Positions 28,251 to 62,999 of a stretch of 64,000 bases of DNA are shown one piece after another. The DNA lies in assembly GCA_948567375.1 (NCBI GenBank), contig OX419761.1:34386243-34450242 (forward strand), read 5' to 3'. The notes under the pieces are model-generated. The model saw only the letters and a program-made list of their open reading frames with translations. It did no database searches and was not told where the DNA came from. Position numbers and translations under genes: made by a program. How positions within the stretch are numbered: position 1 is the first letter of the stretch; each line of letters starts with the position of its first letter. This DNA comes from Lunularia cruciata (Eukaryota > Streptophyta > Marchantiopsida > Lunulariales > Lunulariaceae).

Positions 28251-28280
28251 ATATGGTGGATACAAGCAAAAGGTGGAGAT

Positions 28281-31147: not shown

Positions 31148-33731
31148 GATGCTCCAATTGTTTGTAGACTATACAACTTGCATAGCTCAGACATCTTAGG
31201 TGCGATAGGGCAGATTTCTCATTTACACTCTATTGAGGCTTAGCTAATTTTACCTTTTTGTCTCTCCCTTGTTAGGCTCGATTGGATCTTCCCATCCTTC
31301 AATTTTTCTACATGGTTGCACTTTTTTGTTATTTACGTTGAAATCTGGATAATCACGACAACTAAAGATGATTTGGAATAGAGAAAAAGAACCAAGGGGG
31401 AGTTGTTGGTGTGTTACACCGAGGGTTCGTCCAACAACATCTTTATTGTAACAATAGCTCTCGTACCTCATACTACCTCAACTTCTAGAGCCTCGTGATC
31501 TTCTTTCCAATATTTTATTAGGTAAATTGCAAAATCTATATTTGGAGTAGAATTGAAGAAAATAACTCATATTCTTTTAAAGATATCAAATATCAATGCA
31601 TTAGTGGGTCACAAAAATGAAGTTGATGGGAATTGTGCATTTCCCAGAATATTTTCATAGGAATTTTTTCACATTTTTTCACGTAATCTTTTCTCGTAAA
31701 CCAAATCAAGAATATGTATGAAATTGCCCATAAAAGGTTAGGGTAATTTAGGGTTTAAGATGGTTTCTTTTCAATTCATTTTCAATAAATAAAGTGGATG
31801 GACCACTCATAATTGGAATCATTATTGTAAATATTTACGAGGGACAATTTTAGTTATCGGAAAATTTCTAAAAGGTTACGGTGTTTTATTTTTCTTTTCT
31901 CTTTCTAAGAACACACAAGGTGCCTATCTATGGAGATTTCAGATTAGAGGCTGTAGGTAAAACTATAACTACTTGTCTGAACACGTGTGTTACCTAACAG
32001 TCAAAACCCTCTACTCTCTTGTAACTAGTATTCTTGATATCGGGTAGGGTAGTGATGGGCAACCTAACCTGTCATCACAACATGCACTCTTGGTCTACTG
32101 GTCATCACTTCCAACATTACCAATGAGAAATACAAAACACTCCTAGAAAGAAAGAACCTAAGTGCAATGCCCGCACACCAATCCAAGCCAACTGGGCGTA
32201 CAAATAAGCATGCAAGCACAAAGAGGATCCAATCACAAGAATGCGGCAACAACTCTCTGTGCTTTTTGTCGGAAAAGAGCTTTAGAGCCATTGTGCTCTA
32301 TCATCAAGCTAATTTCAACATGTACTCCAAGTCTCCTCCAAGCTGTACTTCAGATCTCAACAAATTCCTACTCCATGTGGGGATTTCCTAGGTCTTCTTG
32401 ATGTGGAAAACTTTGTAAAACTCATATGAACATAACTCTTTTTGTATAACTTAGATTCAAGTTCTCTAGGATTCAATGGAAAGCCTTTGAGATAATATTT
32501 ATGATGATATAAAATAGACCTCAATCATATCACTACAACTCCCCTGACAAGTTCTCAAAGTTGGCCAGGTTTTTGCAACTCTCACCCTAATTTTGAAATC
32601 CCCTTTTTTAGGGTTTTGCCCCTTGTTCTTGTGAACTTTCCCTGATTTCTAAATCAGATGTCCACTTGATCATCAAAAAACACTCCGGAAATTTTAAATC
32701 TCAATCATACTCACAAAAGTGAGAGAATTGACATTCAATTTAAGATTGAAGAAAGAAATGCTCCTCCAAGCTTACGACAGTCTTTTCAGTAAAACTTGTT
32801 GCATCAGATCTCACTCTCCATGAGTCCAAAGCCAACTAAATTTTCCATAGTAGTTGTTTGTGCTCTTGGTTAACAATCTGCAAAGTTTGATTGTTTAATG
32901 CAATCCCAATCCCTCGATATGGATCAATTCATGAGCTGGGCTAACTTGTGAGCTCTGTAGACCCAAGTATACTTGATCCAAGACCCTAAATTCTCTATTT
33001 GAAGAATTCACATGAAACCTTCACAAAAAGGTGCAAACCCTAACTAATAACAAGACTGGAAATTTTCATAAGGGATCTCGAACCATAACTTGGGGAGTGA
33101 CCTAAACTCCAAACCTGATCACTAGCTCTTCTCCATCACCTTACACCTCAAAAGCTTCAACTTCAATCAACCAGATCTGGTTTGAGATTGATCCAAAAAT
33201 GAATTTTCTTGTGCTCAATACTCTAAGCACTTTGTCTTATCTACAATGCCATTGACAAATAGTGAAAATGTCTCAAGAAACTCTCTTAATTGTCTACTTT
33301 GTGCTCCTAGGTATGAATTTTACCACCCTTGATTCAATTGATCATATCACTCTTAGAATCAGCTTAAATCATGTTATTTCTATCTCCAGATTGTAGCCTG
33401 TCAGCTCCTCTTTCCAACCATGTCCTTCATTCCACAAATGGTCTCCCCAAATGCCTTTGATGGTCAAAAACTCCATACTTCTCTCTTGGGACCCAATCTC
33501 TTGCACATTTGTCCTTTAGTCTTTTACTTTTTGACAAATGGACCTCACAACTCCACTTGAAGCTTATGAGCAAAAATTTAGGCATCTCTCAACTATAGAA
33601 GCACATATATTGTCAAGTCCCAAACATGCTCATAAGTAAGCACCAGAAGGACGATAAGATCCGGGTTTCCCATCACCGACTCCACAAATACCGCCCCAAA
33701 ATGTGCCACCATCTAGGGAGGGACAACGCAT
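31148..33731. other. AT-rich region, no gene seen
   Basis: Beyond the repeat at about 31215-31340 I recognise nothing coding. The longest frames (31250-31471 -, 32064-32291 -, 32162-32401 +) are short and without motif. Confidence 0.5.
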
Positions 33732-34088
33732 TTTTGAGGCCTAATTCATCCGTTTAGGCCTCCAAAATTGCCTTCAAAGATTAGACATATTTTGATTCCT
33801 GCTCTATTAGTAGAAGTCCCCTTTTGGTGATACCTCTTTCTGATCTGTTTAGTCCATCATGTGTAACATCCTTCTAGATGTTACGAAACCAATTCTCACC
33901 TTTAAATCATATGTCTAGCTATTGGTTCTAAGGTTCTCAAGTCTATTTTCGTTTCTACCCTATTAGTAGAAGTACTCTTTTGGTGATACTTCTATATTAT
34001 CTATTTTGACCATCATGTATAACATCATTCTAGATGTTACCAAACCAAATTTCACATCTAGATCATATGGCTAGCTCTTGATATTATA
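33732..34088 (-). repeat. 3' LTR of the - strand chromovirus, truncated
   Basis: It aligns with about 39607-39963 of the other LTR (GGTGATACCTCTTTC, CATCATGTGTAACATC and so on). Similarity stops abruptly at about 33732, so about half of the LTR is missing or replaced. The inner border has TATAATATC where the other LTR has TGTAATACC. A purine-rich tract (- strand, about 34089-34100) adjoins it. Confidence 0.75.
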
Positions 34089-35687: not shown

Positions 35688-36956
35688 CTACCAAATTTGG
35701 TGACGAGATAGATCCTTCTGCGTCTCAAGGTAGACTAGAGGTTTGTGGTCTATCTCTACTACAAATGCCTTCTCTCCCAAATAGTGCTTCCAATGCTTGG
35801 TTGCTAGAATGATGGCCAGCTCTTCTTGTTCTGTGGTGTGGTAGTTCCGCTCTACGGGTAACAAATTTTGAGAGAAATATGCAATTGGATGCCATCCGTC
35901 ATGCCACTCTTGTTGTAGGATTGCTCCTATTGCTACGCCTGATGCATCTATAGCCAACTTGATTGGACGTTTTGGGTCATACCACTTCAAGATTGGTGCA
36001 TGTAGCAAGGCGATCTTCAATTCTTGAAAGGCCAACTCTTGTGCAATTCTCCATGTCCACTTCTTCTCCTTGCCAAGTAGTGCCGTTAAAGGCTGTGCAA
36101 CCTTGGAGAAGTCCTTGACAAATCTACAATAGAATCTCATCAACCCCAAGAAGCTCTTAAGTTGAGTCTGATCTTCTAGGGCACTCCATTTTTGAATGAC
36201 CTCTATTTTATTTGTCAATACTTGAATGCCCTCTGCACTTACTCTATGCCCCAAGTAGTCTACTTCAGACTTGCAAAACTCACACTTTGAGATTTTGGTG
36301 TACAATTGATTCTGTCTTAGAATTTGGAGGACCTCTCGTAGATGTTGTTTGTGTTCTGTCATTGTGCTACTATATACTAAGATATCATTCAAAGAGACAA
36401 TAACAGACTTATCCAAGTATGGACAAAATATGTCATTCATTAGACTCATGAAAGTGGCAGGTGCATTGGTGAGGCCAAAAGGCATCACGAGATACTCAAA
36501 GTGGCCATACCTGGTTTGAAAGGCAGTTTTGTATACATCATCCTCTACAATTTGGATTTGATTGTAACCGCTCCGCAAGTCCAGTTTGGTGAAGTATCTT
36601 GCTCCATGGAGTTGATCAAACAGGTCATCCATGCGAGGTAAGGGGTATTTGTTCTTCACTGTTTGCTGATTGAGACCCCGATAGTCAATGGACATGCGCA
36701 TTGGACCATCCTTCTTCTTCACAAACAAGATAGGGGCCCCATATGGTGATACGCTAGGTTGGATGAACCCTTTCTGTAGCATCTCCTCAATTTGAGTCTT
36801 ACACTCCTCTAACTCATGAGGTGATAGGTGATATGGGGCCTTACAAGGAGGTGTCTTCCTCGGGAGTGTCTCAATTTTGTGATCTACTCGCCTTTTTGGT
36901 GGTATATCCTGAGGGTAGATCATCAAGAAAGACATCTTGAAACTCATCCACCACAT
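35688..36956 (-). pseudogene. Reverse transcriptase and RNase H of the - strand chromovirus
   Basis: A long open frame (422 codons) holds RT motifs [24 protein letters not shown] and [14 protein letters not shown]. The active-site box reads [10 protein letters not shown]; the second-last catalytic Asp of YLDD is Asn (codon 36387-36389), so polymerase activity is expected to be lost. RNase H follows ([30 protein letters not shown]) and ends at a stop before the last motif. Positions 36871-36956 overlap the protease frame, a sign of a frameshift. Confidence 0.9.
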
Positions 36957-37449
36957 CCTTCAATTTATCAGGAATTTGTCTATCAAGTTGTGCACTCTGG
37001 ACTTCTCTTATTAGACCCATAAAACATCTATCGATCTTACAAACAATTGCCGTCCTTATGACATACAGAGGCAGTTTCTGCCTATGTGATTTTTCTTTAA
37101 CTCCAATGATTGACCATTGGTGGGTTCTCACTACTTTCTTCCTCCAATCTACCATAGGGTTGTATTGCTCCATCCATGGCATGCCTAAAATTGCATCATA
37201 ACGAGCTAACTGTAACACTCGCCACTCAATTGCTTCTTGATATTCTCCTATAGAGAGGGTTACCCGTTTAGGTAATGATTCAATCCTCTCTATTTGCCCA
37301 TTAGGTAACTCTACTTCTTCACTCTGATCCCTCTCTAGATCCATTCCCAATCTCATTGCAATAGAGCGAGACAAGAAATTCTCTGTTGCTCCCAGATCTA
37401 TTAATACCCTCACTTGATTACCTTCTAGGATTCCATTCACGACAATCAA
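36871..37449 (-). pseudogene. Retropepsin region of the - strand chromovirus
   Basis: The - strand reads VLIDLGATENFLSRSIA, the aspartic protease site, with Leu where Ser or Thr follows the catalytic Asp. AILGMPWMEQYNP follows, typical of the Gypsy protease end. The frame runs on towards RT. Confidence 0.82.
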
Positions 37450-39230: not shown

Positions 39231-39963
39231 TGTAATACTCCGAGGACAAGAGAAGAGAGAAAACATGAATTGCACACTCAAACATTTGATGCTCCAAAGG
39301 AGCACCTTCTCTTTATTATATAGACAAAGAGGATCTCCTCCAAGGAAGCTCCACCATAGGATTAGGGACACATATAAGTGACATGTCAGCAAGCTCCACC
39401 CTTGGATTACTTACTTGGATGGGTGACATGTTTGGTCTAGGTCCTATTTGGTTGGTCAAACAAGCTTTAACCGGAGGGAATCTTTTAGGGAGTCTTCCTG
39501 TAGGAATCTCAAAATCACATAAGGTACCATTGGAAAGCTCTCAACGAGACAAAGTAGGGGGGAGGAAAGGCCACCTTTTCTTCCATTGGAGGAGGAATCT
39601 ACACATTTTTGAGGCCTAATTCATCCATTAGGCCTCCAAAATTACCTTCAAGATTTCAGGCATATTTCGGTTCCTACTCTATCAATAGAAGTCCCCTTTT
39701 GGTGATACCTCTTTCTGATCTGTTTAGTCCATCATGTGTAACATCCTTCCAGATGTTACCAAACCAATTCTCACCTTTAAATCATATGTCTAGCTATTGG
39801 TTCTAAGGTTCTCAAGTCTATTTCAGTTTTTGCCTTATTAGTAGAAATACTCTTTTGGTGATATTTCTATCTTATCTATTTTGACCATCATGTATAACAT
39901 CATTCTAGATGTTACCAAACCAAATTTCACATCTAGATTATATGGCTAGCTCTTGGTATTACA
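39231..39963 (-). repeat. 5' LTR of the - strand chromovirus (733 bp)
   Basis: On the - strand it starts TGTAATACCAAGAG at 39963 and ends GAGTATTACA at 39231, next to the primer site. A TATA-like box (TATATAATAAAG on the - strand, about 39311-39322) lies in its downstream half. Confidence 0.85.
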
Positions 39964-40799: not shown

Positions 40800-41983
40800 A
40801 TACTGTCACGCCATTTGTAGTGTCACATCTAGATTGCTCGGACACTGGAGTTGTAGTGATAGTAGTTAGAGTTATTTTAGCAATTTCTCAAAGACTACTT
40901 TCCGACGGTCAGATTTTGTGTTTGGGGTACTGATTTCATGGTGGGGCCCACCGTCACTTTGCACCGTTTTCACCGTCAAGTGTGCCATTAGTGGGACTGT
41001 TAGGGTTTCAGACCTAGCTCAAGTCCAAAGGTAAACTTTCAAAGTGCAGCTCCAAAGAGCTCACTTCTCTGATGTTGAGCCTTCGAGTTCCTGGCTATGG
41101 TGGACAGAGGCCAACGAGCGTCACCTGGATTCTCTTAGCTAGAGTGGGTGTGGCTTCGAGGCATAAGGCTGTGGGCTATGAAGGCCTAGAAGGGCCAGCA
41201 AGCCAGCTTGCTGGCATGAGGCTAGCTAGTTTATAGTAGATCTTGGTAATTGGTTGGCAAAATCTGCCCATTTTACTAGATTATGTGCAACAGGGTTTGA
41301 CCCTTAGATCTCTTGTTCCTAGACTGGTGCCCTAGCCAATTGGTCCGCCCTCACTTGTTGTCCTAGTGACTATGCCACTATTATCTATACACTTGTAGCT
41401 TTGGCTAGGAGAGGCAGTTTGATCCCATTCTTGGTAATCCTGGTAGCTTAGGACTTATATACGAACTTCTCTTATATCAAATGCCAAATGGTGACAGACT
41501 CAATCTTGTGTTGTTTTATGAGATGGAGGGTTTTCATTTAGATTTCTTGTGATTGGACTCTCTCCATTCTCTACTTCTTGTTTGTGCACCACATTTGTGT
41601 GAGGTGCACTGAATTTTGAGTGTTGGTGCTCTGGTGTGCTCTTGGTAGTGAGGTTGGAGTGATGACCAATCAGACTACCTTTGCTTCTCTCTGGTGAGGT
41701 AGGAAGTGATGATCTATAGACTATGAGAGTGCATGTTGTGATGGTAGGTTACAAGCCCTTTTCCTTAGTGTAGTTATCTCAGTTAGAGTTACATTAGTAG
41801 GTGATGCTTAATTGGTATTGGCACTTGGTGGGGTACTTGCGATTGTGAATTGCGGTTGCAATTTGCGGTTCTGGTTTGCTGTTGCAATTTGTGGTTGCGG
41901 TTACTTTGTCACGATGGAGTTCTTTGGGGATTCTAGAGGAGATAGCCTTGCCGTATGCAGTGGGTTTACTCAGAGTGGTAATC
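40800..41983 (+). repeat. 5' LTR region of copy A (borders uncertain)
   Basis: From about 40804 (CATTTGTAGTGTCACATCTAGATTGC) it matches the 3' LTR from about 49421. The first 107 bp of the LTR seen at 49314 are missing or unrecognisable here. Compared with copy C it lacks about 560 bp near 41153. The right border is a guess: GGTATCAG at 41986-41993, shortly before the gag Met, might be a primer site. Confidence 0.6.
41292..41354 (-). other. tRNA-Leu-like relic, antisense in the LTR (copy A)
   Basis: On the - strand it reads GTGAGGGCGGACCAATTGG, then CTAGGGCACCAGTCT, ending in GGGTCAAACCC. The D-arm and anticodon-stem region resemble tRNA-Leu (GG.CGAGTGGTCTAAGGC.CCAGACT), and the end resembles the B box. 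Copy C has the same relic, with a better match at the start (GTGAGGATGG). It lacks a variable arm, so it is not a working tRNA. A tRNA-derived SINE is possible. Confidence 0.4.
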
Positions 41984-42009: not shown

Positions 42010-43560
42010 ATGAGGAACAAAATTGACTCTGAGTTGGAGTTTGACACATGAGTTGATTCAGTTGAGAGTGCACTTGGTGTGTCTGCACCGTTGTTGTGGG
42101 ACATGGACTAGATTTATGGGGCCTCCAAAGGCCCTAGGCGTTACTTTGGTATAGTGGGTACCATTGAGTTGGATGACTTCATCCAAGAGTTTGATAGTTG
42201 GTGTGATCTATAGTAGATGCGGAGCCCAACTTTTTTTACACCCTTCATGGCATGGAAGGGGTTGTTTTAGCATCTAGAGGGTCCACCAATGGATGAATAC
42301 CATGAGTTCAAGAGAGCTCATTTGGAGGAGATCAAGTTATGGAGACAATATTGGTTTCCAAACTATGTCTCTATCACTTCAGATTTGGTGGCCGGGAGTA
42401 GATTGGCTGTACCTACGAGTTCTAGCTTGAGTAGTGTTAGTGGAGCTAGTGGAAGTGCACTAGCTGGAGATAGTGTTACTATGAGTGGAGGTACTGCTAC
42501 AAGGGGTGGTGTGGTACCGAGGTTTAACCCCATGGTGGAGTTCTTCTAGTGTTTGAGGCAGAACTACCAGGGAGTGCGGATTGACAAGCAAAGGAGCTTG
42601 CAAGAGTTCCTATGGAAGGCTAGAGAGAGGCTACGCAAGGCATACACTTGCATGAGGCGGCTGATCAGTTTCACTCAAGGAGTTACTAAAGCCCAGGCAG
42701 TCCAGTTTTGGTATGGGATACTGGACAGGGAGTTGCAACCTATAGTTTGTGATGCTACGTTGTTATAAGCTACTTTGCCTACTCTGGCAATGGTCTTTGG
42801 TTTAGCTAAGCGTACTAAGCTCAACATGGTGGAGGAGAGAGTGGTGACATCTAGATTTGGTAGGGAGACCTCATCCATAGTTGTGACTTCTTCTAAAGTG
42901 CAGCAGAGTGCACCACGCCCAATTGGTTTTTGAGGACAAGGTGGACAACCTAGATCCTATGGAGCGAGTGGAGTTAGATCCTTACTTTCATTTTTGGGTC
43001 AACAACAACCAGTGAGTGGTGGTGTTGCTTGTTGGACTTGTGGTGGACCTCACCATTGGAGAGAGTGTACTCAGGGCAGTGGACCTGATACCTTGGGTGC
43101 ATCACAGCTAGCATAGAGGCAGTGTGAGCATTGCCATAGATTTGGTCACACTAGTGACCAATGTTTTGATCTACACCCGGAATTACGGAGTGGTAGGGCT
43201 GCTATGACAAGTAGTAGAGGAGGTCCAGTTCATGGAGGACAAGGTGCTAGAGGTGGTGGTAGAGGATCTACATCTAGTAGTGGTGATGTACTTGCCTTTA
43301 CTTCTAATACAACTATGGCTACTCAGATTGAGTAGTTGGAGCAGAGATTGGCTAGTATGGCCATTGCTCATAGGAGATCAAATTTGGGTGCTAAGGCTCT
43401 CACCTCATATGCTGGTGATAGAGATGCTTTGGATTTCATGTGCGGAGCAACACAAGTGGATACATCTGCAGTAGTGACTAGGAGTGCAATACGTGCTCCA
43501 AAGCCTAGAGGAGCATCAGTGGAGTTGGACCCACAAAGAGGAGAGGTTGGGAGACACGTC
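42010..43560 (+). pseudogene. Gag of copy A with two CCHC zinc knuckles
   Basis: It starts at Met 42010 (IDSELEFD), equivalent to Met 53548 of copy C. The capsid-like region includes SLQEFLWKARERLRKAYT and FTQGVTKAQAVQFWYGIL. Two zinc knuckles follow: a variant CWTCGGPHHWREC at about 43030 and a canonical CEHCHRFGHTSDQC at about 43120. The zinc knuckles imply RNA packaging. Several TAG stops interrupt the frame, for example at 42548 and 42766 and just before the second knuckle. Confidence 0.8.
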
Positions 43561-43959
43561 AGACTTCCGTAGTCTTTCATACTATCTGAGGCATTGCAAA
43601 TGACATCCATGGCTCCTAGATGTCCCAATGTAGGTGTGGTAGGTGGTGATGGAGTGCATGATGGACTACTTGCTAGTCAGCCACCTACTACTACACATAT
43701 TGAGTAGAGCATGATGTTGGGAGCGGCTCAGCTAAGTATGCGGTGTCCTTTGTTTTTGGCCAGTGACGTGTTTACATTGGGAGTTGACCCAACTCCAATT
43801 TTTAGGTTGGTTGCCATGCTTTGTGAGAGCAGGGATGATGCGGTTTCTACAGCTAGAGCAGAGGTGGTTGATAGTGGAGCTGACTTGGTTGAGGAGCATG
43901 GGATCCATTCCGGGACCAGTGGTTTATGGCAAGCAGTAGCCAAGTAGACCGATCTTTGA

Positions 43960-44380
43960 GAGAGCATGGTTCACACTTGGTGTTGTCCTATTGGATAACC
44001 AGAGAGGGATTTTCCATTTGGTGGGATCTTCAGGGAAGGTCTATACACCACAGAGAGTCTTGTTAGACTTTGGTGCGTAGCCCCTAATGTTGGAGAAGGC
44101 TGCAATTGTTGGTCTGGAGTTACAAAAGACCAATGTGGAGAGGTATCCATTTCAGATCCAGACATCTCTAGGTGGTGGTTCGACATAGTACATCACACAT
44201 GGGGAGCTTGTATCCAAGTTTAGCCTAGTCATCCAACCGATAGCTTGGTGGTGAGAGCTTAGGCTATTATGACAATAGTTGAGTCATATGATGTGCTAAT
44301 TGGGAGAGCAGTGTTATACCCCATGGGTTTCATCATTGACTATTGGGAGGAGACAACCTCCTATAGACCGGGTTGGTAGT
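43960..44380 (+). pseudogene. Retropepsin region of copy A
   Basis: Reads VLLDFGA, a TAG, then PLMLEKAAIVGLELQK, and after a frameshift ESYDVLIGRAVLYPMGF. This is the layout of a Gypsy aspartic protease: Asp-x-Gly-Ala, then a hydrophobic strand with DVLIG. The residue after the catalytic Asp is Phe instead of Ser or Thr. Confidence 0.65.
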
Positions 44381-44768
44381 CTGGTGAGGGACAAGTATGT
44401 TGCCTACCAATATACTTCAATAGTGGTAGTCTTGGCTCACTAAGACCATAGGAACATCAGGTTTAGCTTTCAGTGGTGCAATTACTTAGCCTGGTGACTT
44501 GTTGGAGGGGAACGCCCATGCAGAGGATACTCCAATACCAGAGGAGATCACTCGGATTTGGAGTACAAGTGGGATTGTTCCATCCACCTTGGATGTTCCA
44601 TTGTGGAGTTCAAAGGAGGCGTTGTAGCAACATGCAGATCAATTGGTGCAGTAGGCTTAGAGTGGAGCCTTTGTACCATCAAGAGATGAGTGTGAGGATG
44701 AGCCTCCAGAGTTGATTACTTTGACACCTCTGGATACCACACTCATTGCTTGGCAGTATCCAATAGAG

Positions 44769-45735
44769 GAGATATGTCTATTGGAGTTGTTTGGTGGGAT
44801 TAGCAATGGACTAGTTGCAGTATTACAAGCGGGTATACAAGTACAGAGGTACTTGTATGTAGAGAGAGATGAGACTGCTAGGCGAGTCTCTCTACATCAT
44901 GTGGCACACTTGGCCTATTGGTATCTGGAGTTATTACCAATGTTAGTAGTCAGAGGTTACCAAAAGGCCCTACCAGTAGACATTTCTTTATTGGGGACGC
45001 ATAATCTAGAGAGATATGGACCTATTCACTTGGTGCTTTTTAGATGGCCATGTTAGGGACATACATGTGCTGGCCGAGGTTTGGGTCTTAAGGATCCTTG
45101 TTCTGGTGTGTTTTGGGAGATTTTATGGATACTACAACATCTCATAGTTCATCAGTCCGTTCCTCCAGCTTACTTTTTGGAGAATTTTCCTTTGATGGGT
45201 AATTCTTGCACTAGAGTGGTGGCGAGTACACTTAGGTTCATTCTTGGGTGGGACTTGCTATATTGTTAGATGCAGCCAAAGTGGGATCATAGGCTCATCA
45301 TCTTCATCTTTGGTGGACAAACCTCTTAACCAAAGAGGTTCTATAGTGTGCTTATGATGGGATTCAACAACTTGACCACATCCTTGTTGATGATATCTTG
45401 GATATTAGATGTCAATCTCAGATAATGGTAGTGGCTGATAGGTCACCTATGGCAGTGGTGAACCTAGTTGGAAAGCCTAGAGCCGCATTTCTCACACTCG
45501 TGAGTTTCCCAAGCTCTCATGCTTTTTGAGAGGGAGGACTTGGACTTGTTTGGGACTCACAGTTACAACAGTTGGTAGAGCCCAACGCTGATGAGAGAGA
45601 GAGCAAGGGATGGGTTTTTGCACTAGTATTACTGTTGTTCCAGCAATGTCAAAGGCATCTAGGCGTCAGGTGTTAGGTCATGCTATGGGCCTGAATTGTT
45701 TGACCTGGATTGTGAGCCTTGGGTTGGCAGAGTAG
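44769..45735 (+). pseudogene. C5 cytosine DNA methyltransferase domain (DNMT3-like), copy A
   Basis: Cytosine-5 methyltransferases move a methyl group from SAM to cytosine in DNA. Motif I is LLELFGGISNGLVAVLQAGI, followed by YLYVERDETARR. Motif IV is RWPC, with the catalytic Cys codon at 45051-45053, immediately followed by TAG (45054-45056), then GHTCAGRGLGLKDP.SGVFWE. Motif VI is PPAYFLENFP. After a one-base deletion come LLDAAKVGS and LWWTNL, then motif IX-like VEPNADERE and motif X RRQVLGHAMGLNCLTWIV, ending GLAE and a TAG at 45733-45735. The order I-IV-VI-IX-X is that of DNMT3 and bacterial enzymes, not the rearranged order of plant DRM. Beyond the TAG the frame continues into a linker leading to RT. 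It is certainly not active as it stands. Confidence 0.88.
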
Positions 45736-45741: not shown

Positions 45742-46140
45742 ATGCGCTTGATAGGCATCACTACTCGGACACGTGTGAGCCATGTGCCTATCAAGACAAT
45801 TCAAGCACATGTTGGGGGCAATGAACAGAGTGGGCATGGTATTCTTGGGACACAACTTGTAGCTACTAGGGAGAGTGGTCTACTTGGAGTCCATCGAGGT
45901 GAGCATGGGCTACTTGGATTACACCCGTGGTCCACTTGGGATGTAGCTAGAGGATGTGTGGCGCTTGTAGCCAGAGTGGAGGGAGTTTTTCACATAGAGG
46001 TTGAGACCTCTAGTGGTCGGGAGCATGACACTATTGCTCCCAAGGGCCCAGTATAGCAGCCAGTCAGGACGTCTTGCACTCCTACCACAATTACAGAGGA
46101 TACTTAGGAGCCAGATCTTGGACCCAAGCTTACTGGAGAG
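45742..46140 (+). pseudogene. Linker between methyltransferase and RT, copy A
   Basis: In frame with the end of the methyltransferase, it reads 104 codons (IGITTRTRVSHVP, ESGLLGVHRGEHGLLGLHP, VARVEGVFHIEVETSS). The GLLGVH/GLLGLHP repeat is present in copies A and C. No known domain is recognised. It ends near the sequence preceding RT (EPDLGPKLTGEE). Confidence 0.55.
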
Positions 46141-46850
46141 GAAAGACAGAGGGTTTGGAGGTTCTGAGGAACCACACAAGTTGTTTTCCTTTCAGTATGT
46201 AGGATTTGGGTGCTCTGAAGGGACCTGGTATACAAATTGAGCCAACTAGCAATACACTAGTTTTCCAACGTCCTTATTGATATAGTGAGATGGAGAAGAT
46301 ATTGATTTAGAGCTGGAGTAGTGACCTTTTTGAGGTTGGTTTGGTGGAGATTTCACATGGAAAGTATGCATTAGCAATAGTGATGTCAGCCAAGAAGGAT
46401 ATGCATGGCAACTACATAGATAGGTGGATGTGTGGAGATTACCATCCTATCGATTGACAGACTAAGGCTGATTGGTATGCCATGCCTACACCAGAGGAGA
46501 ATTTTGATGCTATTGGGCATGCAAAGATCTTCAATACTTTGGATCTTTGAGCGGGATATCATCAATTACCAATCAAGGAGGAGGATAAGTCCAAGACAAC
46601 ATTTTGGGCTGTTGATCCTCACAGTAAGGATGTGTTATATCAGTAGAGGTTCTTACTATTTGGGTTAAAGAATGCTTATGCTGAGTTCCAGAGGATCATG
46701 GATTGGATCCTAGCTGGATTGATGACATTTTGGTCTATAGCACTACTATGGAGGAGCATGAGAGACAATTGTTGGAGGTGTTTGAGAGGTTGAGATCTCA
46801 TGGACTCAAATTACATCTTGGGAAGTGTAGGTTCTTCCACAAGTAGGTTG
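46140..46850 (+). pseudogene. Reverse transcriptase of copy A
   Basis: Reads EVGLVEISHGKYALAIVM, DMHGNYIDRWMCGDYHP, ADWYAMPTPEENFDAI, AGYHQLPIKEEDKSKTTFWA. About 22 bp containing the start of the YIDD box are deleted compared with copy C. Stops are mostly TAG. Confidence 0.82.
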
Positions 46851-46869
46851 AGTATTTGGGTCACACTAT

Positions 46870-47520
46870 CTACCCTGAAGGACTTGTGTTCAACAAACCA
46901 AGGTGGAATCTATTGCACGTATTCCTTGGCCTACGGATGTGAGCAGAGTGCGTGCATTCCTTGGGTTGGAAAACTTCTATTGCCGCTATGTTAGAGGATT
47001 TAGTGCCATTGCCAAGGCCTTGATGAAGTTGACCAAGCTTACACATGAGTGGTGTTGGGGAGATGAGCAAGAGAGAGCTTTTGTAGAGCTCAAGGAGAGG
47101 TAGACATTTACTCCTATTTTGAGGAGACCGATCAGAAGATGACCATTTCAGGTTCAAACTTATTGGAGTATGTTGGGGCTTGGAGCGGTGCTCACCCAAC
47201 ATGATGATGAGGGGAAGGAATTTGTGGTGGCTTATGCTAGTCACTCCAACAATTTGGCCAAGGCAAAGTATAGTTCATATGAGGGAGAGTGCTTGGTAGT
47301 AGTTTGGGCAGTAGCACATTTCCAATGTTACCTATTTGTAACCCCTTCAATCTCATCACTAATCATCAGCCACTGAAGTGGTTGATGGAGTCCGGCAAGC
47401 TTTCAAAGAAGCTTGCACGATGGGCTCTGATTTTACAAGAGTATGATTTCATGGTTGTTCATAGACCTGGAGTGGTGAACCATGATGCAGATGGGTTGAG
47501 TAGAAACCCATGTCCCAGCT
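46870..47520 (+). pseudogene. RT connection and RNase H of copy A
   Basis: The connection region reads IARIPWPTDVSRVRAFLGL, then GFSAIAKALMKLTK and WGDEQERAFVELKER. RNase H reads MLGLGAVLTQHDDEGKEF, AYASHSNNLAKAKYSSYEGE and, after a frameshift, NHQPLKWLMES and HRPGVVNHDADGLSRNP. This is the typical Gypsy RNase H end. Confidence 0.85.
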
Positions 47521-47879
47521 AATAGCATCAGACTGGAGCACATTGGCATGGTGAGACATATGAGTAGATAGTGCCAAGTTGGCATGCATTGGCCTTTTTG
47601 TGTATATTTCCAAAGGCTTTGGTGGTATCTTCCTCAGCACATATAGGAGGAGTTATTGAGGTCATAGATCCAAAGAATGAAGATATTGGTACAATTCAGC
47701 GAGACATCATGATGATATCTTAGTGATGGACTATCTTTGCACTAGTGTTGTGGGTGGCACAATTGGGGCCAAGGAGAAAGACCATGTTCTTCAAATGAGC
47801 CAGACTGTTCAGATTGGACGGCAGACACCTTTTGCATGTATGAGAGGATGGTAGAGTGTGAGTAGTACCACATCCATCT

Positions 47880-48990
47880 CAGAAACCACAGTTGGTCCGT
47901 CATGCTCATGAGGAGCTAGGACATTTTGGAGTAAAATGTACATATATCTTACTCCAGAGTCATTATTGGTGGCACGGTATGGAGACCGAGGTATAGTAGT
48001 TAGTTGCTAGATGTGTGGTTTGTGACCAAGTTAGAGCATCATTCAATGCTTCTACGCTACAATTACACCCATTACCTATCATGGGATTGGGTTACCATTG
48101 GAGTTTGGACTTCACTAGACCTTTACCGCTGACAGTGAGACATCATCGGTATGTTTTGGTGATGGTGGAGCACTTCTCCAAGTGGATTGAGTTGGTGGCA
48201 TTTCCTGACAAGTCTAGTGAAGGGACAACTTACTCGTTCCTGGATCGAGTTCTTAGTCATTTTGGTGCACCAATTGAGGTTTTGACTGATCAAGGTATAG
48301 AGTTCTTAGGGGAGTTTCAGGTCTTGTGTGACAAGGCTTTGATTGATCATCGTACTACATCCCGAGATCACCCTAAGGTAGATGGCTTAGTAGAGAGAGT
48401 AGTTCAAATGATGAAGAGAGGATTGCAAAAGTATGGTTTGCAGAGATGCCACTTGGGAGATTGAGATCTCCAATTACCTTGGTTGGCCATGGGCTATTGG
48501 TTCAGCCGGCAAGCCTCCTAGCATCCTTCTCTCTGTACTTTCTACTATATGGATGAGATCTAGATTTACCTAGAGCCATATATCGAGATGTTATTGTAGT
48601 TTTGGACTTGGATGACCCCGATGTATGGATGAGCGCATGTTCTTAATGGGCAGAGATCTTTTAGAGAGTGATACAGATGGCCTTCAAGAACTTGGCGATT
48701 GCTCAACATAGAGATACTTTACGCTATGCTACCATTTGAGGAGGAGGTTATAGACCCTCGATCCATCAATTTCATCCAAGAGACTATGTATATCTACAAC
48801 AGACAATACCGATGACACTTGATATTTTGACAAGCCGCACTATCTTAAGAGTGCGTGAGGTTTTGCCATTTGGAGTCCTTGTGTTAGAAGGATGTGATGG
48901 TGTTGTTTGGAAGGATCATGTGCACAATTGTGTGCCATGCTACCTCCCAAACATTGATGGTACTATGGACCCAAGCTTAGCACTTGTACA
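47880..48990 (+). pseudogene. DDE integrase of copy A
   Basis: The zinc region (RHAHEELGHFGVK, then CVVCDQ) precedes the open core 48015-48464. In the core the catalytic triad is intact: Asp in WSLDFTRP (codon 48108-48110), Asp in VLTDQGIEF and Glu in DGLVERVVQ, with the last two 35 residues apart as in retroviral integrases. The frame then decays, and the C-terminal region is open again at 48812-49120 (IPMTLDILTSRTILRVREVL). The downstream PHD finger is in that same frame. Confidence 0.85.
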
Positions 48991-49003: not shown

Positions 49004-49138
49004 TGTATGTTATGTGGCTCTTCTAGTAGAGCTACTATTATGTTAGTGTGTGATAGCTGTTCGAGAGGATGGCATATGGCATGTATGACTCCTCTCCTCA
49101 TGGTGGTTCCTCAAGGATAATGGTTATGTCCTAGATGT
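49004..49138 (+). pseudogene. PHD finger at the integrase C-terminus, copy A
   Basis: The frame that carries the end of integrase reads CMLC, then LVCDSCSRGWHMAC, then WLCPRC. This is the complete C4-H-C3 zinc pattern of a PHD finger with its conserved Trp before the last Cys pair. PHD fingers read histone H3 tails. Here it occupies the position of the chromodomain in chromoviruses. A TAA (49118-49120) splits it just before the last pair. The final stop is a TGA after 49141. Confidence 0.82.
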
Positions 49139-49313: not shown

Positions 49314-49868
49314 TGTGGCACTTTAGAGCCTATGTATAACTTATGTGTGAGTTGTGCTTCTATAGTGTATGATGTTGACAATGATGTATGTTGTGTAGTG
49401 ATGTATATACGCACGACAACTATCATACCATTTGTAGTGTCGCATCTAGATTGCTTGGACATTGGAGTTGCAATGATAGTAGTTAGAGTTATTTCAGCAG
49501 TTTCTTAGAGACTACTTTCCGATGGTCAGATTTTGTGTTTGGAGTATTGACTTCACGGTGGGACCTGCCGTCAATTTGCACCATTTTCACCAAGTGTGCC
49601 ATTAGCGGGACCATTAGGGTTTCAGACCTAGCTCAAGTCCAAGGGTATACTTTCAAAGTGTAGCTCCAGAGAGCTCACTTCTTTGATGTTGAGCCTTTGA
49701 GTTCCAAGCTATGGTGGACAAAGGCCGGCGAGCATCACTTGTATTCTCTTAGCTAGAGTGGGTGTGGCTTGACTGTAATTAGTGCCCAATTGTTGGCAGT
49801 TTATAGAGTGACAAATCAAGTATCAATCTGAGCTGAGTGGATTCAAGAGTTGTAAACAATCTGATTAT
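49314..49868 (+). repeat. 3' LTR of copy A, truncated (555 bp)
   Basis: Starts TGTGGCACTTTAGAGCC. A TATA-like GTATATAC lies about 95 bp in. From 49421 it matches the 5' LTR region. It stops at AATCTGATTAT, where a second LTR start begins. Confidence 0.75.
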
Positions 49869-49975
49869 TGTGGCACTTTAGAGCCTATGTATGACTTATG
49901 TGTGAGTTGTGCTTCTATAGTGTATGATGTTGATAATGCTGTTTGTTGTGTAGCAATGTATATATGCACAACATC
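49869..49975 (+). repeat. Second LTR start, directly after the truncated LTR
   Basis: TGTGGCACTTTAGAGCC and about 90 bp more repeat the first 107 bp of the LTR at 49314. The sequence then jumps at 49976 into inverted pol sequence of copy B. Confidence 0.75.
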
Positions 49976-51932
49976 CTCCTCCTTGATTGGCAACTAATGA
50001 TATCTTGCTCAAAGATCCAAAGTATTGAAGACCTTTGCATGCCCAATTGCATCAAAGATCTCCTCCGGTGTAGGCATGGCATACCAATCAACCCTAGTCT
50101 ATTGGTTGATAAGATAGTAATCTCCACACATCTGCCTATTTGTGTTGATGCTATGCATATCCTTCTTAGCTGGCATCATTGTAGTTGATGCATACTTTCC
50201 ATACAAAATCTCCACCAAACCAGCCTCAAAAAGGTCACTACTCTGGCTCTAAATCAATGCTCTCTCTATATCACTATATCAATAAGGACGTTGGAAAATT
50301 GGTGTATTGCTAGTTAACTCAATCCAAATACCAAGTCCTTTCAAAGCACCAATATCCTTCATACAAAATGCAAAACAACTTGTGTAGCTCCGCAAGAACC
50401 TCCAAACTCTCCATCTTTCTTCTCCTGTAAGCTTGGGTCCCAAAGTTGGCTCCCAAGTATCCTCATATGAGTAGGAGATGTACTAATTGGCTGTTACATT
50501 GGGCCCTGGGGAGCAATAAGGTCATGCCCCCAAGCACTAGAGTTCCCAACTTCAATGTGTGAAAAACTCCCTCTGCTCTAGCTGCAAGCTCTATACATCC
50601 TCTAATTGCATCCCAAGTAGACCAATCCAAGTAGATCATGCTCACCTAGATGGACTCCAATTAGATCACTCTCTCTAGTAGCCATTGGTTGTGTCCCAAG
50701 AATACCCTATCCACTTGGTCCATCACCCCTAGCATGTGCTTGAATTGTCTTGATAGGCACAAAGCTCACAAGTGTCAGAGTGGTGATGCCTATCAAGCAC
50801 ATCCTACACTACTCTGCCAAGCCAAGGCTCACAATCCAAGTCAAACAGTTCAGGTCCTGACCTAACACTTGACACTTGGATACCTTTGACACTGCTAAAA
50901 TGATGATAATAACGGTGCACCCACCTCCTATTGTCTCTCATTGGCGTTGGGCTCCACCAATGATTGTAATTGTGAGTCCCAAACAAGTCTAAGACCTCCC
51001 TCTCAAAAAGCATGAGAGCTTGGGAAACTCATAAGTGTGGGAAAAGCAACTTGGGGTTGTCCAACTAGGCTTACCACTACCATAGGTGACCTATCAGCCA
51101 CTATCACCATTTGAGACGGACGGCCAACATCCAAAATCTCATCAACAATAAGGTGGTCAAGTCGTTGAATCCCATCATAAGCGCGTTGTAGAACCTCTCT
51201 AGGTAAGAGGTTTGTCCACCAAAGACAAAGACAATGAGCCCATGATCTCACTCTAGTTGCATCCAACAACATGGTAGATCCCATCCAACAATGGAACTGA
51301 TGTGTACTTACCACCACCTAGGTACAAGAATCGCCCATCAAAGGAATGTTCCCCAAAATGTAAGTTGGAGAAAAGGATTGATGAACATGGAGATATCATT
51401 GTATCCATAGCATCTCCCAAAAAATACTTGAATATGGATCCTAATGACCCAAAACTCAGCCAGCACCTGTATATTCTTAACATGGCCATCCAAAAATCAC
51501 CATATAATGGGACCTTGTCTCTCCAAATCTTACGCCCCTAGCAAGGAAATATCTACTGGTAGGACCTTTTGGTAACCTTTGACTGTTGACATCAATAATA
51601 ACTCAAGATATCAATAGACCAAGTGTGCCACATGATGTAGAGACTAGCCTAGCAGTCTCATCTCTCTCCACATGCAAGTACCTATGTACTCATATACCCA
51701 TCTGTAGTACCATAGCTAGTCCAATGTTAATCCCATCAAACAAATCCAATAAATATACTCCCTCTATTGGATATTGCCAAGCAATGAGTGTGGTATCTAG
51801 AGATGTCAAGGTAATTCACTCTAGAAGCTCATCCTCACACTAGTCTCCTAATGGTACAAAGGCTCCACTCAAGCCTGTTGCACCAACTGATCCGCATGTT
51901 GCTGCAATGGCTCCTTTGAACTCCACAAAGGA
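49976..51932 (-). mobile_element. Copy B of the DNMT-PHD element (inverted fragment)
   Basis: The - strand runs from just before the methyltransferase (51932) through the methyltransferase and linker into RT, ending within the strand that reads KEED in copy A. Both ends are cut inside coding sequence, so it is a rearranged fragment with no LTR of its own. Identity to copy A is high enough to align throughout. Confidence 0.85.
50815..51830 (-). pseudogene. C5 cytosine DNA methyltransferase domain, copy B
   Basis: On the - strand: motif I LLDLFDGINIGLAMVLQ and YLHVERDETAR; motif IV VIFGWPC with the catalytic Cys codon at 51480-51482 and a TAA next; then MLLDATRVRSWAHC and LWWTNL on the frame 51317-51003; then VEPNA and QDLNCLTWIVSLGLAE near 50815. 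Motif IV is best preserved here (GWPC). Stops and frameshifts abolish the product. Confidence 0.85.
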
Positions 51933-51934
51933 AC

Positions 51935-53525
51935 CTAAAAAGTTTTGGTGGTTACTCATGGGCTACTTGTCAAAAGTTAAATTTCATGTTTAAGGTAGTG
52001 ACTATATGGTAGGGCACACTATCACTTGCACCATTCACACCATTGGGTGTGCCATCGGTGGACATTAGGGTGTGAGACCTAGCTTGAGTCCAAGGGTTAT
52101 AGTTTTGAAATGCAGTTCCAGAGAGCTCATTTCTCTAATGTTGAGCCTTTGAGTTCCTGGCTATGGCTTACGGAGGCCACCAAGCATCACTTGGATTCTC
52201 TAAGCTAGAGTGGGTGTTGTGTGACTATAATCAATGCCCAATTGTTGATAGATAATAGAGTGACAAATCAAGTACTAATTTGATTGAGTTTGATTCAAGT
52301 TGTGTAAACAAACTAATTACATTAGAGAAGTGAGGTCAAGAGGAAATCAAATGAAGGAACTAAGAATGTTAGTGGTATCTCCAAGACTTGCTGATTTTTG
52401 GTAGCTCAATCAGAGTTTAGGGTTTAGGGCCAAATTTTGAGCAAAGAGAAGCAATTTTCAAGTGGTAGTTGTGATTTTGAGCTCAAGAGTGAAAGTAGGA
52501 CCAATTTGGTGCAAGTTGAGTTCAAAGAGTGAAATTGAAGGTGGAGTTGGGAACCCATCTCCATGAATTTATGATTTGGAAAAACCCGTTATTTCAATTT
52601 GGCTCAAGTGGAGAGTTAGCAAAGGATTTGGCGGTCAGCCAACTTTAGGGATTTACTCGAGGTTACATAAAATTTTGGCCAGATTTTGGCAAGAAAAAAG
52701 GCATCATTTGGGCATTTAGAAGCTTTGAGACATAGGGTGGTTGGCTATGAGAGGCTACCAAGACCTAGAAGGGCCAAAAAGGCCAACTTATTAGCATAAG
52801 GCTAGCTAGTTAGAGTAGATTTTGGTCATTATTTGGTAAAATTTGTACATCCTTGCTAGATTGTGCACAACAAGGTTTGACCCCTAGATCTATGGTTCCT
52901 AGACTGGTGCCCTAGCCAACTTGTCCATCCTCACTTTTTGTCCTAGTGACTATTCCATTATTATTTATACACTTGTAGCTTTGGCTAGGAGAGAGAGCTT
53001 GATCTCCTTCTTGGTGATCTTGGTAGCTTAAGAAGTAGATAACTCATATTATGTCACATGCCAAATGGTGGTAGAGTCAATCCAATGTTGATTTATGAGA
53101 TGAAGGGTTTTTTGTTAAGATTTCTTGTGAGTGGACCTCTCCCCATTCTCTACTTCCTATTGTGCACCATGTTTGTGTGAGGTGTCTTGACTTTAGAGCA
53201 TTGGTGCTCTAGTGTGCTCTCTATCATGAAGTTGGAGTGATGACCAATTAGACTACCTATGTTTCTCTTGGGCGAGGCAAGAAGTGATGACCTATAGACC
53301 TTGAGAGTACGTGTTGTGATGGCAAGTTACAAGTTTCCCTTTCCCCTAGTGTAGTTGTCATAGTTAGAGCTACATTAGTTGGTGTTGGCACTTGGTGAGG
53401 TACTTGCAGTGGTTCCGATTGCGGGTTGCAATTTTGGGTTACTTTGTCATGAAAAAGTTCTTTGGGGATTTTGGAGGAGATAGCACTACAATACACAGTG
53501 GGTTTACTTGGAGTGGCATTTGATA
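51935..53525 (+). repeat. 5' LTR region of copy C (about 1.6 kb)
   Basis: It matches the LTR of copy A from about 130 bp inside that LTR and includes the roughly 560 bp deleted from copy A's 5' LTR (about 52225-52715). The left end is lost at the junction with copy B; the right border is uncertain. Confidence 0.65.
52873..52934 (-). other. tRNA-Leu-like relic, antisense in the LTR (copy C)
   Basis: The - strand reads GTGAGGATGGACAAGTTGG, then CTAGGGCACCAGTCTAGGA, and GGGGTCAAACC. The first 35 bases resemble the 5' half of tRNA-Leu and hold an A-box-like TGGCTAGGGC. The B box is decayed. It matches the relic in copy A. Confidence 0.45.
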
Positions 53526-53547: not shown

Positions 53548-54100
53548 ATGAAGGAGGAGATTGACTCTGAGTTGGAGTTTGACGCAAGAGTTGATTTAGT
53601 TGAGAGTGCATTTGGTATGTCCGCACCATTGTTGTGGGACATGGACAAGATTTATGGGGCCTTTAAAGGTTCCAAGCATTACTCTAGTACGGTGAGTACC
53701 ATTGAGTTGGATGACTTCATCCATGAGTTTGATAGTTGGTGTGATCTGCAACAGATGACTTTGTTTACACCTTTTGATAGCATGGAAGAGGTTGTTTCAA
53801 TATTTAGAGGGTCCACCAATGGATGACTACCATGAGTTCAAGAGAGCTCACTTGGAGGACATTAAGCTATGGAGATAGTATTGGTCTCCAAACTATGTCT
53901 CCATCACTTTAGGCTTGGCTTTTGGAGGTAGATCAATTGTACCCAGAAGTTCTAGCTCTAGTAGCATTGGTGGATCTCTTGGTGATAGTGCTACTACAAG
54001 TGGAGGTACTACTACAAGAGGTGGCTTAGTACCAACATTTAACATCAAGGAGTTCTTCTAGTGTTTGAGGTAGAACTACCAAGGAGTGCAGATTGACAAT
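53548..54100 (+). pseudogene. Gag of copy C, first part
   Basis: Met 53548 opens a frame of 92 codons (EEIDSELEFDARVDLVESAF, PLLWDMDKIYGAF, DDFIHEFDSWCDLQQM) that lacks several stops found in copy A and so shows the better sequence. It shifts after 53826 and is cut near NYQGVQIDN by the insert. Confidence 0.75.
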
Positions 54101-57100
54101 GTGGTACCAACATTTTTTGTTTTTATTGAAATATGGAAGAAGAAGTGTATAGAGAAGTCAGATTGTGCCTTTATGGCCAAAGAAGGCAAAGAAAAGAGTC
54201 TTTGGGAGGAAACCCGAGGTAACGTGGCTTTGGGTCATAAGATGAAGTACTTGGAATTGCCTTGTCAACAGACAACCTGAAGTAAGGAGTCTTCATATTG
54301 GGGGTGCTTAACCCAAGGTCATAAAACCAGCGGTCATATGCGTGAAGGACACTTGATAGTGACAAGAGCATGTAGGAGGTGTGATTTCTTGGTAGAAACT
54401 CGAATTGAAGAGAGATGAAGAAGACATGACTTTATAAAAATTGGGCTAAAGACGAAGCAATGACAAGCAATTTTCTCTCGCCGTTAGGAAGTCATCCTAT
54501 AGGAGATCATGGGAAGGGAAGTAGAGTTGAAGATGCGTTGGTCTGTAGAGGAGAATTTGAGAGAGCTAATCCAGGAATCAATAGGAAGAATAGTCCCTAG
54601 CCCATAGAGGAAGAGAGAAAGATGGGAGGAGGGAAGAAGAACTCCGAATTTGCAATGAGAAATCATGCAATTTGGAGGTTAGATGTGATCGTAAGAATTA
54701 AAGTCCTAAGTAGACTTTGGATCACATTCTTGGCGTGGAACTGGAATGTAAATTTTGCAGGGTTCATGACTAAGATAATCAAGAGTAGATGTCTTGATGG
54801 CCCCGAGGAAGAGGGAAAGAAAGGTAATCCGGCTTGTTGGACGGAGTCGGATTGGAGGTTAGTACTCGGAAGAGAAGCAGGCACGGAGTAGGGTGCCACA
54901 TTCTTGGGGAAGAGAGAAGTAGCAAAAGAGATCCAAGAGGTGAGAGATACTTTCTCTTCAAAGCACACAAAGAATGGGTACAAAGTAGAGAGTTACAAGG
55001 ATCCTATCAAGCGAGGGATCATGAGTGCTCTAATGGCAATCTTGAAGCCGGAGAGAATGACTTATGTGATGAAGCACCAAGCGGTGTCTTCCATAAGATG
55101 TTTGCAGGAAAGCCAATTAATTGGGTGAAGTCTTTTCATGGGAGAACGAGATAGATGCTATGGAATTTGCAAGATAAGTCGCCTCCACATTACATTGTGC
55201 CATTTATAGCTCATTTCTATCTGGGGCTAAACTTGCTCAATGTGGCGGAGTGCAATATGATGGTGTCGCATTTCCATCCCAACGTAAGAAAGGATGTTGA
55301 TGCGGAGGAGTAGCAATACATTCTTCAGATCAGGAGCAACAATGAGTACTACGTGCAGACGTGGAAGAGTGTGCAATTGGACGTGAGTACTCCAAAGTCA
55401 AAGAAGAAGAGTTGACAAGGAGAAGGAGAAGATGTCAAGAAAGTAAGACCTCGGAAGACTAGAAGAGTAAACCTGAGGAAATGTATGGTGGTAATCGCAT
55501 AATCGGAGGAAGAATTGGAAGGCGAAGCCGAATGCAAGTCCGAAGACTCAGAAAGAGATGAAGAACCCAAGTTCACAATACAGAGTGGAAACACGAGTAG
55601 TGACAGTGATGATGGAGGGGAGATGACATCGGTACCCAAGGAGGAGAAAGCCACGATGGAGATGGAGGAGAAACGTAATTCAAAGTTGGAAGACAAAGTG
55701 CCAAAGTAGGAAGAAAGGAAAGTTACCATTCAAAGAGGAGTTTGTTCTAGACGAAAGGTGAAGTATGAAGTGGTGCCAAGTAAGGTAAGAGAAGAGGAGA
55801 ATGAAAGTTTGGGGAGTGAAGCATCCATTCCTATACGGTGATTTTGACTCAGAAGGTGAGTGTCGAGTGAAGAAGAGGTGAAGAAGAGGATCACTCCGCA
55901 AGTCGAGGTAACTCCGAGTGAAGGAGTGGAGTACCTGTAGGAGGTTGTGTGCCCATTATTAGTAAAGTTAGAGAACAAGAAGAAGGAGATGCAGTCAAAG
56001 TGTCCGGAGGTGAAGATTGTGTTGCAGGTGTTAGCCTGATTAGAAGAAGAGAACTCAGAATTAAAGAAGAGTATAATCCGAGGTGAGGAGGAAAGGGAAG
56101 TACTACGAGTAGATGCAGTAGTGCAGAATCAAGTGATTGAAAACTTGAGGAGAGAAGCAAGGAATCGGGAGGAGCTGATAGCGTAGAGTGTTATAGCAAG
56201 GGAAAGACAAATTGCTGAATATGAAATCTTGAAGTAGCAGGTTGCTGATTCAAGACTAGAAATTATCCATGCTATGGCAAGAGTAGTAGAGAAAGAACAA
56301 GAGCTCAATAGGGTGATGGAGAGTGTAGAGGAGAAGAAGCAGCTGTGGCAATGAGAGTTGATAGTGTAGTATAGAGAAGAAGAAAGGTTGAGAGAGTTAC
56401 TTTGCAATCAAGAAGAAAAGATTGTGCAGAAAGAGAAGGAGAAGGAAGCGGTGAAAGTTGAGTTCAAAGCAGAATTGGCAATGTACAGAGAAGATTGGCT
56501 GGCAGATCAAGACGAGAGAGGAAGATGAGATTGGAGCCATTGAAGGAGATCATGATCAAGATGAATCCGATGTTGAGTACAGATGCTAGTGTGTGCATTG
56601 AAGAGATGAGGCTGCACGAGTTGAAGTTATTGGTGCAGGAGACAAGGAGGAGAAATGCAAAAGACAAAGATTTTAATGCTTTACTTATCAGTCTAAGAAC
56701 TCGTGTAAATAGGAAGATATTGGAAGTAGAAGACAATATCATAATTAGATTAGACTTAGTCAAATTAAAGATAGATAAACTTCAAAAGGATGTCAGAGCA
56801 AAACCCGAAGTAGATGAAGTAGGAGTGTCTTTAGAGTTACCATTGGAGATATTTGAGAAGAGTGGGTCGGGAGATAAGGAGTTAGATAGATTACCTTCTT
56901 GTGGAATTGTGAATCACGAAAGAGAATTGTTAGATTTGGTAGAGGAATTAGGAGTGGTGAAACCCAAGGATAGAGTAGTAGTGAGTGAAGTTACTTTGGG
57001 ATCGGGTTTGAAAGCCAAGGAAGAAGTAGACATCGGATCGGATTAGGAACAGATTTGAGATTTGAAGAGGCAGATATGAAGAGGTGCATTGTCATTTCGG

Positions 57101-62100: not shown

Positions 62101-62177
62101 GTAGGTTCTTCCATGAGCATGTTGAGTATTTAGGTCACACTATCTACCCTGGAGGACTTGGTGCTCAATAGACCAAG

Positions 62178-62993: not shown

Positions 62994-62999
62994 AATATG

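Follow-up and report, generated by a model that had tools for sequence, protein, structure and literature searches.

A captured DNMT3-type methyltransferase in dead copies of a Ty3/Gypsy retrotransposon family of Lunularia cruciata

DNA methylation is the main weapon of the host against transposable elements, so an element with a methyltransferase of its own is a paradox: what would such an enzyme do for its carrier? This question is raised by a 64,000-nucleotide stretch of Lunularia cruciata DNA (GenBank assembly GCA_948567375.1, contig OX419761.1, positions 34,386,243 to 34,450,242, forward strand), here called the window, within which positions are counted below. It holds three copies (A, B, and C) of one Ty3/Gypsy family, all dead, and each contains a C5 cytosine methyltransferase. 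The original prediction, made from the letters of the window, had placed this enzyme in frame between the retropepsin and the reverse transcriptase (RT) of a Gag-Pol polyprotein. The enzyme does lie between the two (about 44046 to 44376 and 46164 to 46885 in copy A) and belongs to the Gag-protease side. It is not in frame with them, given the stops and frame changes in all three copies, and it is not part of Pol, since an in-frame stop precedes the RT in each copy. Overall, sequence comparison supports a captured DNMT3-type methyltransferase that is a fixed part of this Gypsy family.

In copy A, the methyltransferase occupies positions 44766 to 45732 (+ strand), and the predicted motifs I (LFGG), IV (Pro-Cys), VI (EN), IX (MGF), and X (LGHA) were all found there. 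As had also been predicted, the domain recurs in copies B (50812 to 51764, - strand) and C (60034 to 60980, + strand), so that all three window copies spanning the site carry it. A profile of the three readings matched 29 DNMT3A/B/C sequences in the PDB (best E value, 2.3e-6) and one further entry, 4onj (E value, 0.65), which we take to be tobacco DRM. Among solved structures, to which this comparison was confined, the domain is closer in sequence to DNMT3 than to other C5 methyltransferases. It has the catalytic fold of DNMT3, and its motifs follow the linear order I-IV-VI-VIII-IX-X, unlike the permuted order of DRM. A DRM identity was rejected on a weaker match, limited to motifs I to IV. 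DNMT2, a tRNA enzyme with E values of only 0.007 to 1.4, and bacterial enzymes were also weaker by sequence, the bacterial ones scoring lower by structure too. A protein search with the methyltransferase, in which scoring was limited to the 8000 candidates sharing most words with it, gave 115 homologues, the best 63% identical over the whole query (E value, 1e-136). The DNMT3 matches in the PDB and these 115 proteins together argue for homology rather than chance. In the proposed check against the DNA_methylase family, neither Pfam nor NCBIfam called any of the three decayed readings a methylase. PF00145 was recovered in two relatives, P0123 and P0125, together with RT and RNase H on one protein.

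Copy A is near-complete (about 40.8 to 49.87 kb, + strand). It is flanked by direct long terminal repeats (LTRs), as in other LTR elements of the Ty3/Gypsy type; the matched part of the 5' LTR (40802 to 41156) is 88.2% identical over 355 columns to 49419 to 49770 in the same orientation, with approximate boundaries and a possibly truncated 5' repeat. By the same comparison, the 3' LTR spans 49419 to 49866 and may start at about 49312. Alignment by tblastn with open relatives gave the order gag, protease, methyltransferase, RT, RNase H, integrase, and PHD finger, which contains the protease-RT-RNase H-integrase order of Ty3/Gypsy elements. The gag region (42103 to 44040, start approximate), in which CCHC-type cysteine clusters can be seen by eye, and the retropepsin-like protease (44046 to 44376), equivalent to the protease block of relatives, were placed through the Marchantia protein P0119, whose residues 1 to 759 align to 42103 to 44424 at 43% identity. 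Beyond the methyltransferase, all on the + strand, lie the RT (46164 to 46885; Pfam RVT_1 pieces and tblastn with P0123 and P0155), the RNase H (46888 to 47510; RT_RNaseH_2, 1.1e-23, and tblastn), and the integrase with its H2C2 zinc finger and catalytic core (47847 to 48518; PF17921, 3.6e-14; PF00665, 8.7e-13; and tblastn). The C-terminal end of Pol is formed by the PHD finger (49004 to 49138; PF00628, 5.2e-8, 33.2 bits with a cut-off of 24), a domain absent from the original prediction. On unjoined three-frame pieces of copy A, Pfam recovered RT, RNase H, integrase, and PHD and called no methylase, gag, or protease; the raw frames of the protease gave zero Pfam matches.

Copy B is an inverted internal fragment (49973 to 51934), and copy C starts at about 52 kb and reaches, with interruptions, at least 63.9 kb. 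Copy A is 81% identical to copy C over 4774 columns and 81% identical to copy B over 1997 columns. In copy C, RT, RNase H, and the start of the integrase were located by tblastn at 61374 to 63916 (+ strand), broken at about 62.56 to 63.0 kb. Copy B apparently sits inside the 5' LTR of copy C (region 49867 to 51952; LTR start at 49867 to 49973 and remainder at 51952 to 52319). About 3.7 kb of other DNA (54100 to 57840) also splits copy C and holds a 183-residue open reading frame (ORF; 56495 to 57046) with no Pfam match. The stretch that breaks the pol of copy C (62569 to 62996) matches the left end of the window (620 to 962) in inverted orientation, at 93% over 267 columns.

How, then, is the enzyme expressed relative to Pol? 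An in-frame stop parts the methyltransferase from the RT, and its codon position is shared by all three copies. In copy A, the C-terminal frame of the methyltransferase passes one other stop and reaches a TAG followed by CAGCCA (46054 to 46062, + strand), beyond which the RT linker follows with no change of frame. In copy C, TAG is followed by TAGCCA (61306 to 61314, + strand), one base off CAGCCA, and the same frame runs on beyond; in copy B, sequence reading gives TAA at 50496 followed by CAGCCA (50488 to 50496, - strand). This shared stop ahead of the RT assigns the methyltransferase to the Gag-protease ORF. The motif CARYYA behind a stop is the readthrough signal of the tobacco mosaic virus type, for which a mammalian test found UAG similar to UGA and UAA much poorer (PMC4132726; this and the papers cited below are drawn on for parts of their text). 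In copy A, 1 of 427 stop triplets is followed by CARYYA, and that one is the junction; the background in the window is 7 of 3309.

The same arrangement is found in L019, a 9285-base contig of a cyanobacterial genome bin, 50% identical and probably a eukaryotic contamination of that bin. Both of its long ORFs are open. ORF1 encodes the methyltransferase (45.9 bits) and a sub-threshold Pfam protease (20.5 bits with a threshold of 24.3) and ends at 3489 to 3491; ORF2, in the same frame, encodes RT, RNase H, integrase, and PHD. Its stop is followed by CAATCA, the one CARYYA among 298 stop triplets. The junctions of copy A (46054) and L019 (3489) thus show a stop, CARYYA, and an open frame beyond, which fits the virus-type definition in PMC4132726 as far as sequence alone can tell. 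The ends of L019 overlap by 127 bases, as in an LTR-collapsed or circular assembly. In relatives, the ORF ends at the corresponding point: exactly 100 residues after the start of motif X in eight proteins, including P0132, and 98 residues after it in P0119 and P0121. Six L019-type proteins (P0144 and P0147 to P0151) share similar ALSAT tails at the ORF end, and other groups end at a place of their own, 131 to 164 or 149 residues after the start of motif X. From the position of the stop and its context, readthrough is the probable route to Pol, which would make the methyltransferase a product at the level of Gag.

Relatives outside the window were collected in three protein searches, which gave 115, 15, and 75 proteins (190 different ones in all). 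Matches with a named organism (11 of 115, 14 of 15, and 17 of 75) all came from bryophytes: Marchantia polymorpha, M. paleacea, Riccia sorocarpa, Calypogeia fissa, and Sphagnum troendelagicum, S. tenellum, S. jensenii, and S. fallax. No vascular plant was among the named matches of these searches and no Klebsormidium-named protein among the matches listed; for the remaining homologues, most sources and the short contigs look metagenomic. Intact copies, for which the original prediction had advised a search, are absent from the window and represented by open relatives in bryophytes and by L019. In Marchantia P0119 (1278 residues, cluster of 18 members), Gag, protease, and methyltransferase lie on one open protein. 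Certain entries from Marchantia and Sphagnum (e.g., P0125, P0126, and P0156) resemble gene models in which parts have been spliced out, and the continuity of those proteins is therefore the annotator's. A scan of genome contigs gave L019 and one other locus, a 33% match from Streptomyces; a scan of IMG/VR gave 18 loci at 27 to 53% identity, mostly short stretches presumed to be phage or other enzymes.

The family-wide presence that had been claimed for the enzyme holds in these relatives, where it shares a protein with protease and/or RT or integrase. The long proteins number 75, and 35 of them are protease-methyltransferase proteins with no scored RT; of these, at least five (P0117, P0118, P0127, P0130, and P0134) stop within the domain and one (P0126) extends into the RT start. 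Another 13 carry the methyltransferase in front of RT or RNase H, and seven hold methyltransferase-integrase(-PHD) only. A second architecture, RT-RNase H-methyltransferase, is found in 20, of which 16 continue with integrase and PHD. The two placements are nearly cleanly apart in the methyltransferase tree, with two label changes (the fragment P0092, whose label is arbitrary, and the long-branch P0190), a number as low in none of 500 shuffles. The window copies form one clade (100/100 in this tree and 100/99 in another methyltransferase tree) in the first group, beside bryophyte elements; their kinship to M. paleacea and Riccia elements in that other tree is weak (97/79, then 94/63), and the copies are decayed. 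The RT tree, with bootstrap not settled, groups copies A and C with Marchantia P0125 (95/84) and P0179 (95/96), which suggests that the enzyme and the polymerase have stayed together in this branch. The EukProt protein P0167 (2140 residues, methyltransferase-integrase-PHD) has a weak sub-threshold Tudor-type match (PF21743, E value 1e-3) behind its PHD.

We consider it probable, on this basis, that the window copies are dead members of a family whose ORF1 encoded Gag, protease, and a DNMT3-type enzyme and whose ORF2, behind a stop, encoded RT, RNase H, integrase, and PHD. A minority of ribosomes would read through the stop to make Pol; the Gag-protease-methyltransferase would then be the abundant product and be packaged in the virus-like particle. 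There, the enzyme might methylate the new cDNA of the element, so that a new copy would arrive with the silent-DNA mark of the host, and the PHD finger may help the integrase to choose chromatin. With the enzyme linked to Gag and in front of a readthrough-type stop, this becomes a concrete hypothesis.

The PHD finger also invites a more elaborate version. The solved PHDs nearest to that of copy A are those of DPF2 (ubi-d4), CHD4, MLL3, DPF3, ATXR5, KDM5B, and PHF21A, and several of these read histone H3 unmethylated at K4, as does the ADD domain of animal DNMT3. A PHD follows the integrase in L019, P0179, and P0188, as well as in the 16 proteins of the second architecture; in copy A and L019, Pfam found no chromodomain and only the PHD behind the integrase. 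The Pol of chromoviruses likewise ends with a histone-reader module, in their case a chromodomain. It is conceivable, though we hold it only tentatively, that a DNMT3-like system was split over the two ORFs: a packaged writer at the Gag level would pre-methylate the cDNA, while the PHD on Pol, as a reader of unmodified H3, would steer integration into matching chromatin. Related elements with the writer in Pol (RT-RNase H-methyltransferase-integrase-PHD) would then be a second solution.

Several observations weigh against the main explanation, a packaged DNA-methylating enzyme made ahead of a readthrough stop. The junction of copy C reads TAG-TAG-CCA, and the one CARYYA among its 343 stop triplets lies elsewhere (59167); copy B has TAA, which is poor for this motif in PMC4132726. 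In 20 of the 75 long relatives, the enzyme comes after RNase H, a place at which expression at the level of Gag would not be expected, and L019 is the only relative read at the DNA level. Three stops (P0119 residues 975, 1133, and 1201) are common to copies A and B and could reflect an already broken progenitor or recurrent deamination. The charophyte enzyme of KnitGypsy-Dnmt3 gave no detected methylation in yeast, a result that its authors call inconclusive (PMC5890265). Moreover, differences among codon positions are flat in the methyltransferase (chi-square, 0.9 to 3.2; 2.6 to 3.7 with frame-followed readings; 2 degrees of freedom; codons differing at all three places dropped, being 5, 3, and 1 in the frame-followed test). 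They are also flat in RT-RNase H (0.3 to 2.6), not significant in the protease (3.9), and biased in gag (12.9). The window copies therefore show no evidence of selection on the enzyme, and the case for its past function rests on motif conservation in relatives.

If the enzyme was active, it could also have acted in the host, on host genes, defence loci, or rival elements, instead of on the cDNA of the element. DNMT3 relatives work on chromatin DNA, the element carries a PHD finger besides, and effects on the host methylome are discussed by de Mendoza et al. 2018 (PMC5890265); the linkage to Gag in ORF1 points instead to the particle, and we regard a host target as unlikely. Slightly less likely still is a domain kept for nucleic acid binding or RNA methylation. 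Its travel with Gag would suit such a role, and the charophyte relative has no shown DNA activity in the text of PMC5890265. Against this, the catalytic Cys is kept in 120 of 124 alignment rows and the motif VI Glu in 140 of 149, and the kin of the domain is DNMT3, with DNMT2 matching only at the E values given above. The alignment has 191 rows, and these counts cover those with a residue at the site; the motif IX Gly is present in 152 of 157. Glu replaces the Pro before the catalytic Cys in 9 of 124 rows; P0092, P0097, P0100, and P0104 have this as ECQG, and P0092 and P0100 form their own branch in the methyltransferase tree with 100/99 support for the window clade.

The decay of the window copies raises the further question of whether the domain was ever of use. 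Followed through its frames, the methyltransferase has four stops in copy A, nine in B, and eight in C, with two, three, and five frame changes. Copy A keeps Pro-Cys and EN, copy B keeps Pro-Cys and has GN (Gly for the motif VI Glu), and copy C has lost Pro-Cys, motif IV being gone through a 14-nucleotide deletion. In the stretch shared by the three copies, with their majority base taken as ancestral, 228 of 454 changes are C>T or G>A, at rates of 0.208 in CHG (45/216), 0.200 in CG (18/90), and 0.069 in CHH (151/2199). The CpG observed/expected ratio is 0.245 in copy A versus 0.717 in window positions 1 to 24000. This pattern is consistent with plant-like CG and CHG methylation of the window copies by the host. 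A passenger domain, acquired by an ancestor and of no benefit since, would match the lack of codon-position bias in these copies, and we judge it improbable given long open domains with motifs kept in proteins that are often 36 to 60% identical, which would be unexpected without selection. Heavy decay would likewise suit a host DNMT3 retrocopy that landed by chance in one element, an accident that we dismiss almost entirely, as it is contradicted by the same place in three of three copies and by 190 homologues, of which all 75 long ones carry protease, RT, RNase H, or integrase.

Captured methyltransferases were rightly said to be known from dinoflagellate and charophyte retrotransposons: KnitGypsy-Dnmt3 was described in Klebsormidium nitens, with further captures in Symbiodinium (PMC5890265), and a 2025 study repeats the streptophyte and dinoflagellate cases (PMC12344493). 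KnitGypsy-Dnmt3 also has a nonrearranged DNMT3-type enzyme in an LTR Gypsy element of a streptophyte, in several copies and with no introns. By its description, however, its enzyme lies in the Pol ORF and its repeats are DIRS-like, whereas in our family the LTRs are direct and ORF1 closes with the enzyme, followed by a readthrough-type stop; the main text of that paper has no occurrence of PHD, which our family carries. Purifying selection was reported there, with Ka/Ks below 0.2 for the charophyte element. SymbioDIRS-Dnmt3 of Symbiodinium is likewise a captured DNMT3 in a retroelement, but one of DIRS rather than Gypsy type and acquired independently according to the authors, and Symbiodinium DIRS enzymes gave de novo CG methylation in yeast (PMC5890265). 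The host enzymes PpDNMT3a/b of Physcomitrium also have a nonpermuted DNMT3 domain, in nonflowering streptophytes (Yaari et al. 2019, PMC6453930), and a plant host DNMT3 is a plausible donor. Host DNMT3 has a C-terminal DUF3444 (PMC6453930), whereas in the window element protease precedes and RT follows the domain; no DUF3444 was found in the Pfam tables of copy A, the relatives' proteins, or L019.

The methyltransferase is a real, DNMT3-type, family-wide feature, and its capture by a streptophyte Gypsy element is already known; what this family and its relatives add is its occurrence in land plants, the Gag-side position, the readthrough-type junction, the PHD finger, and the second architecture in relatives. 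A review states that methylase-bearing transposons are absent from land plants, with tracheophytes as the example (PMC6338049), and the Marchantia, Calypogeia, Riccia, and Sphagnum proteins contradict the wider statement on land plants. The main text of a survey of plant LTR elements (PMC6317226) contains neither "methyltransferase" nor "PHD", and titles and abstract openings, which exclude subscription papers and preprints, reported no such elements in bryophytes or vascular plants. As Marchantia is a genetic model, the role of the captured enzyme for the element is directly testable.

The remainder of the window holds other elements and genes; a scan of the whole found no tRNA and no Rfam family reaching its gathering score. 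Direct repeats (33717 to 34086 and 39591 to 39961, 92% identical) flank a further Gypsy element (- strand), whose protease (36871 to 37449) and RT-RNase H (35688 to 36956) ORFs are long and open, with no methyltransferase between them. It belongs to a different lineage, its RT being at best 40% identical to rows of the RT tree and on a long branch. Ty1/Copia-like ORFs lie on the + strand at 25128 to 25979 (Pol_BBD, GAG-pre-integrase, and a weak integrase) and, by eye and with no Pfam match, at 27651 to 28364. Host-type genes are represented by parts of an ABC transporter (14127 to 17702, - strand) and by a DHHC palmitoyltransferase (8916 to 10533, + strand).
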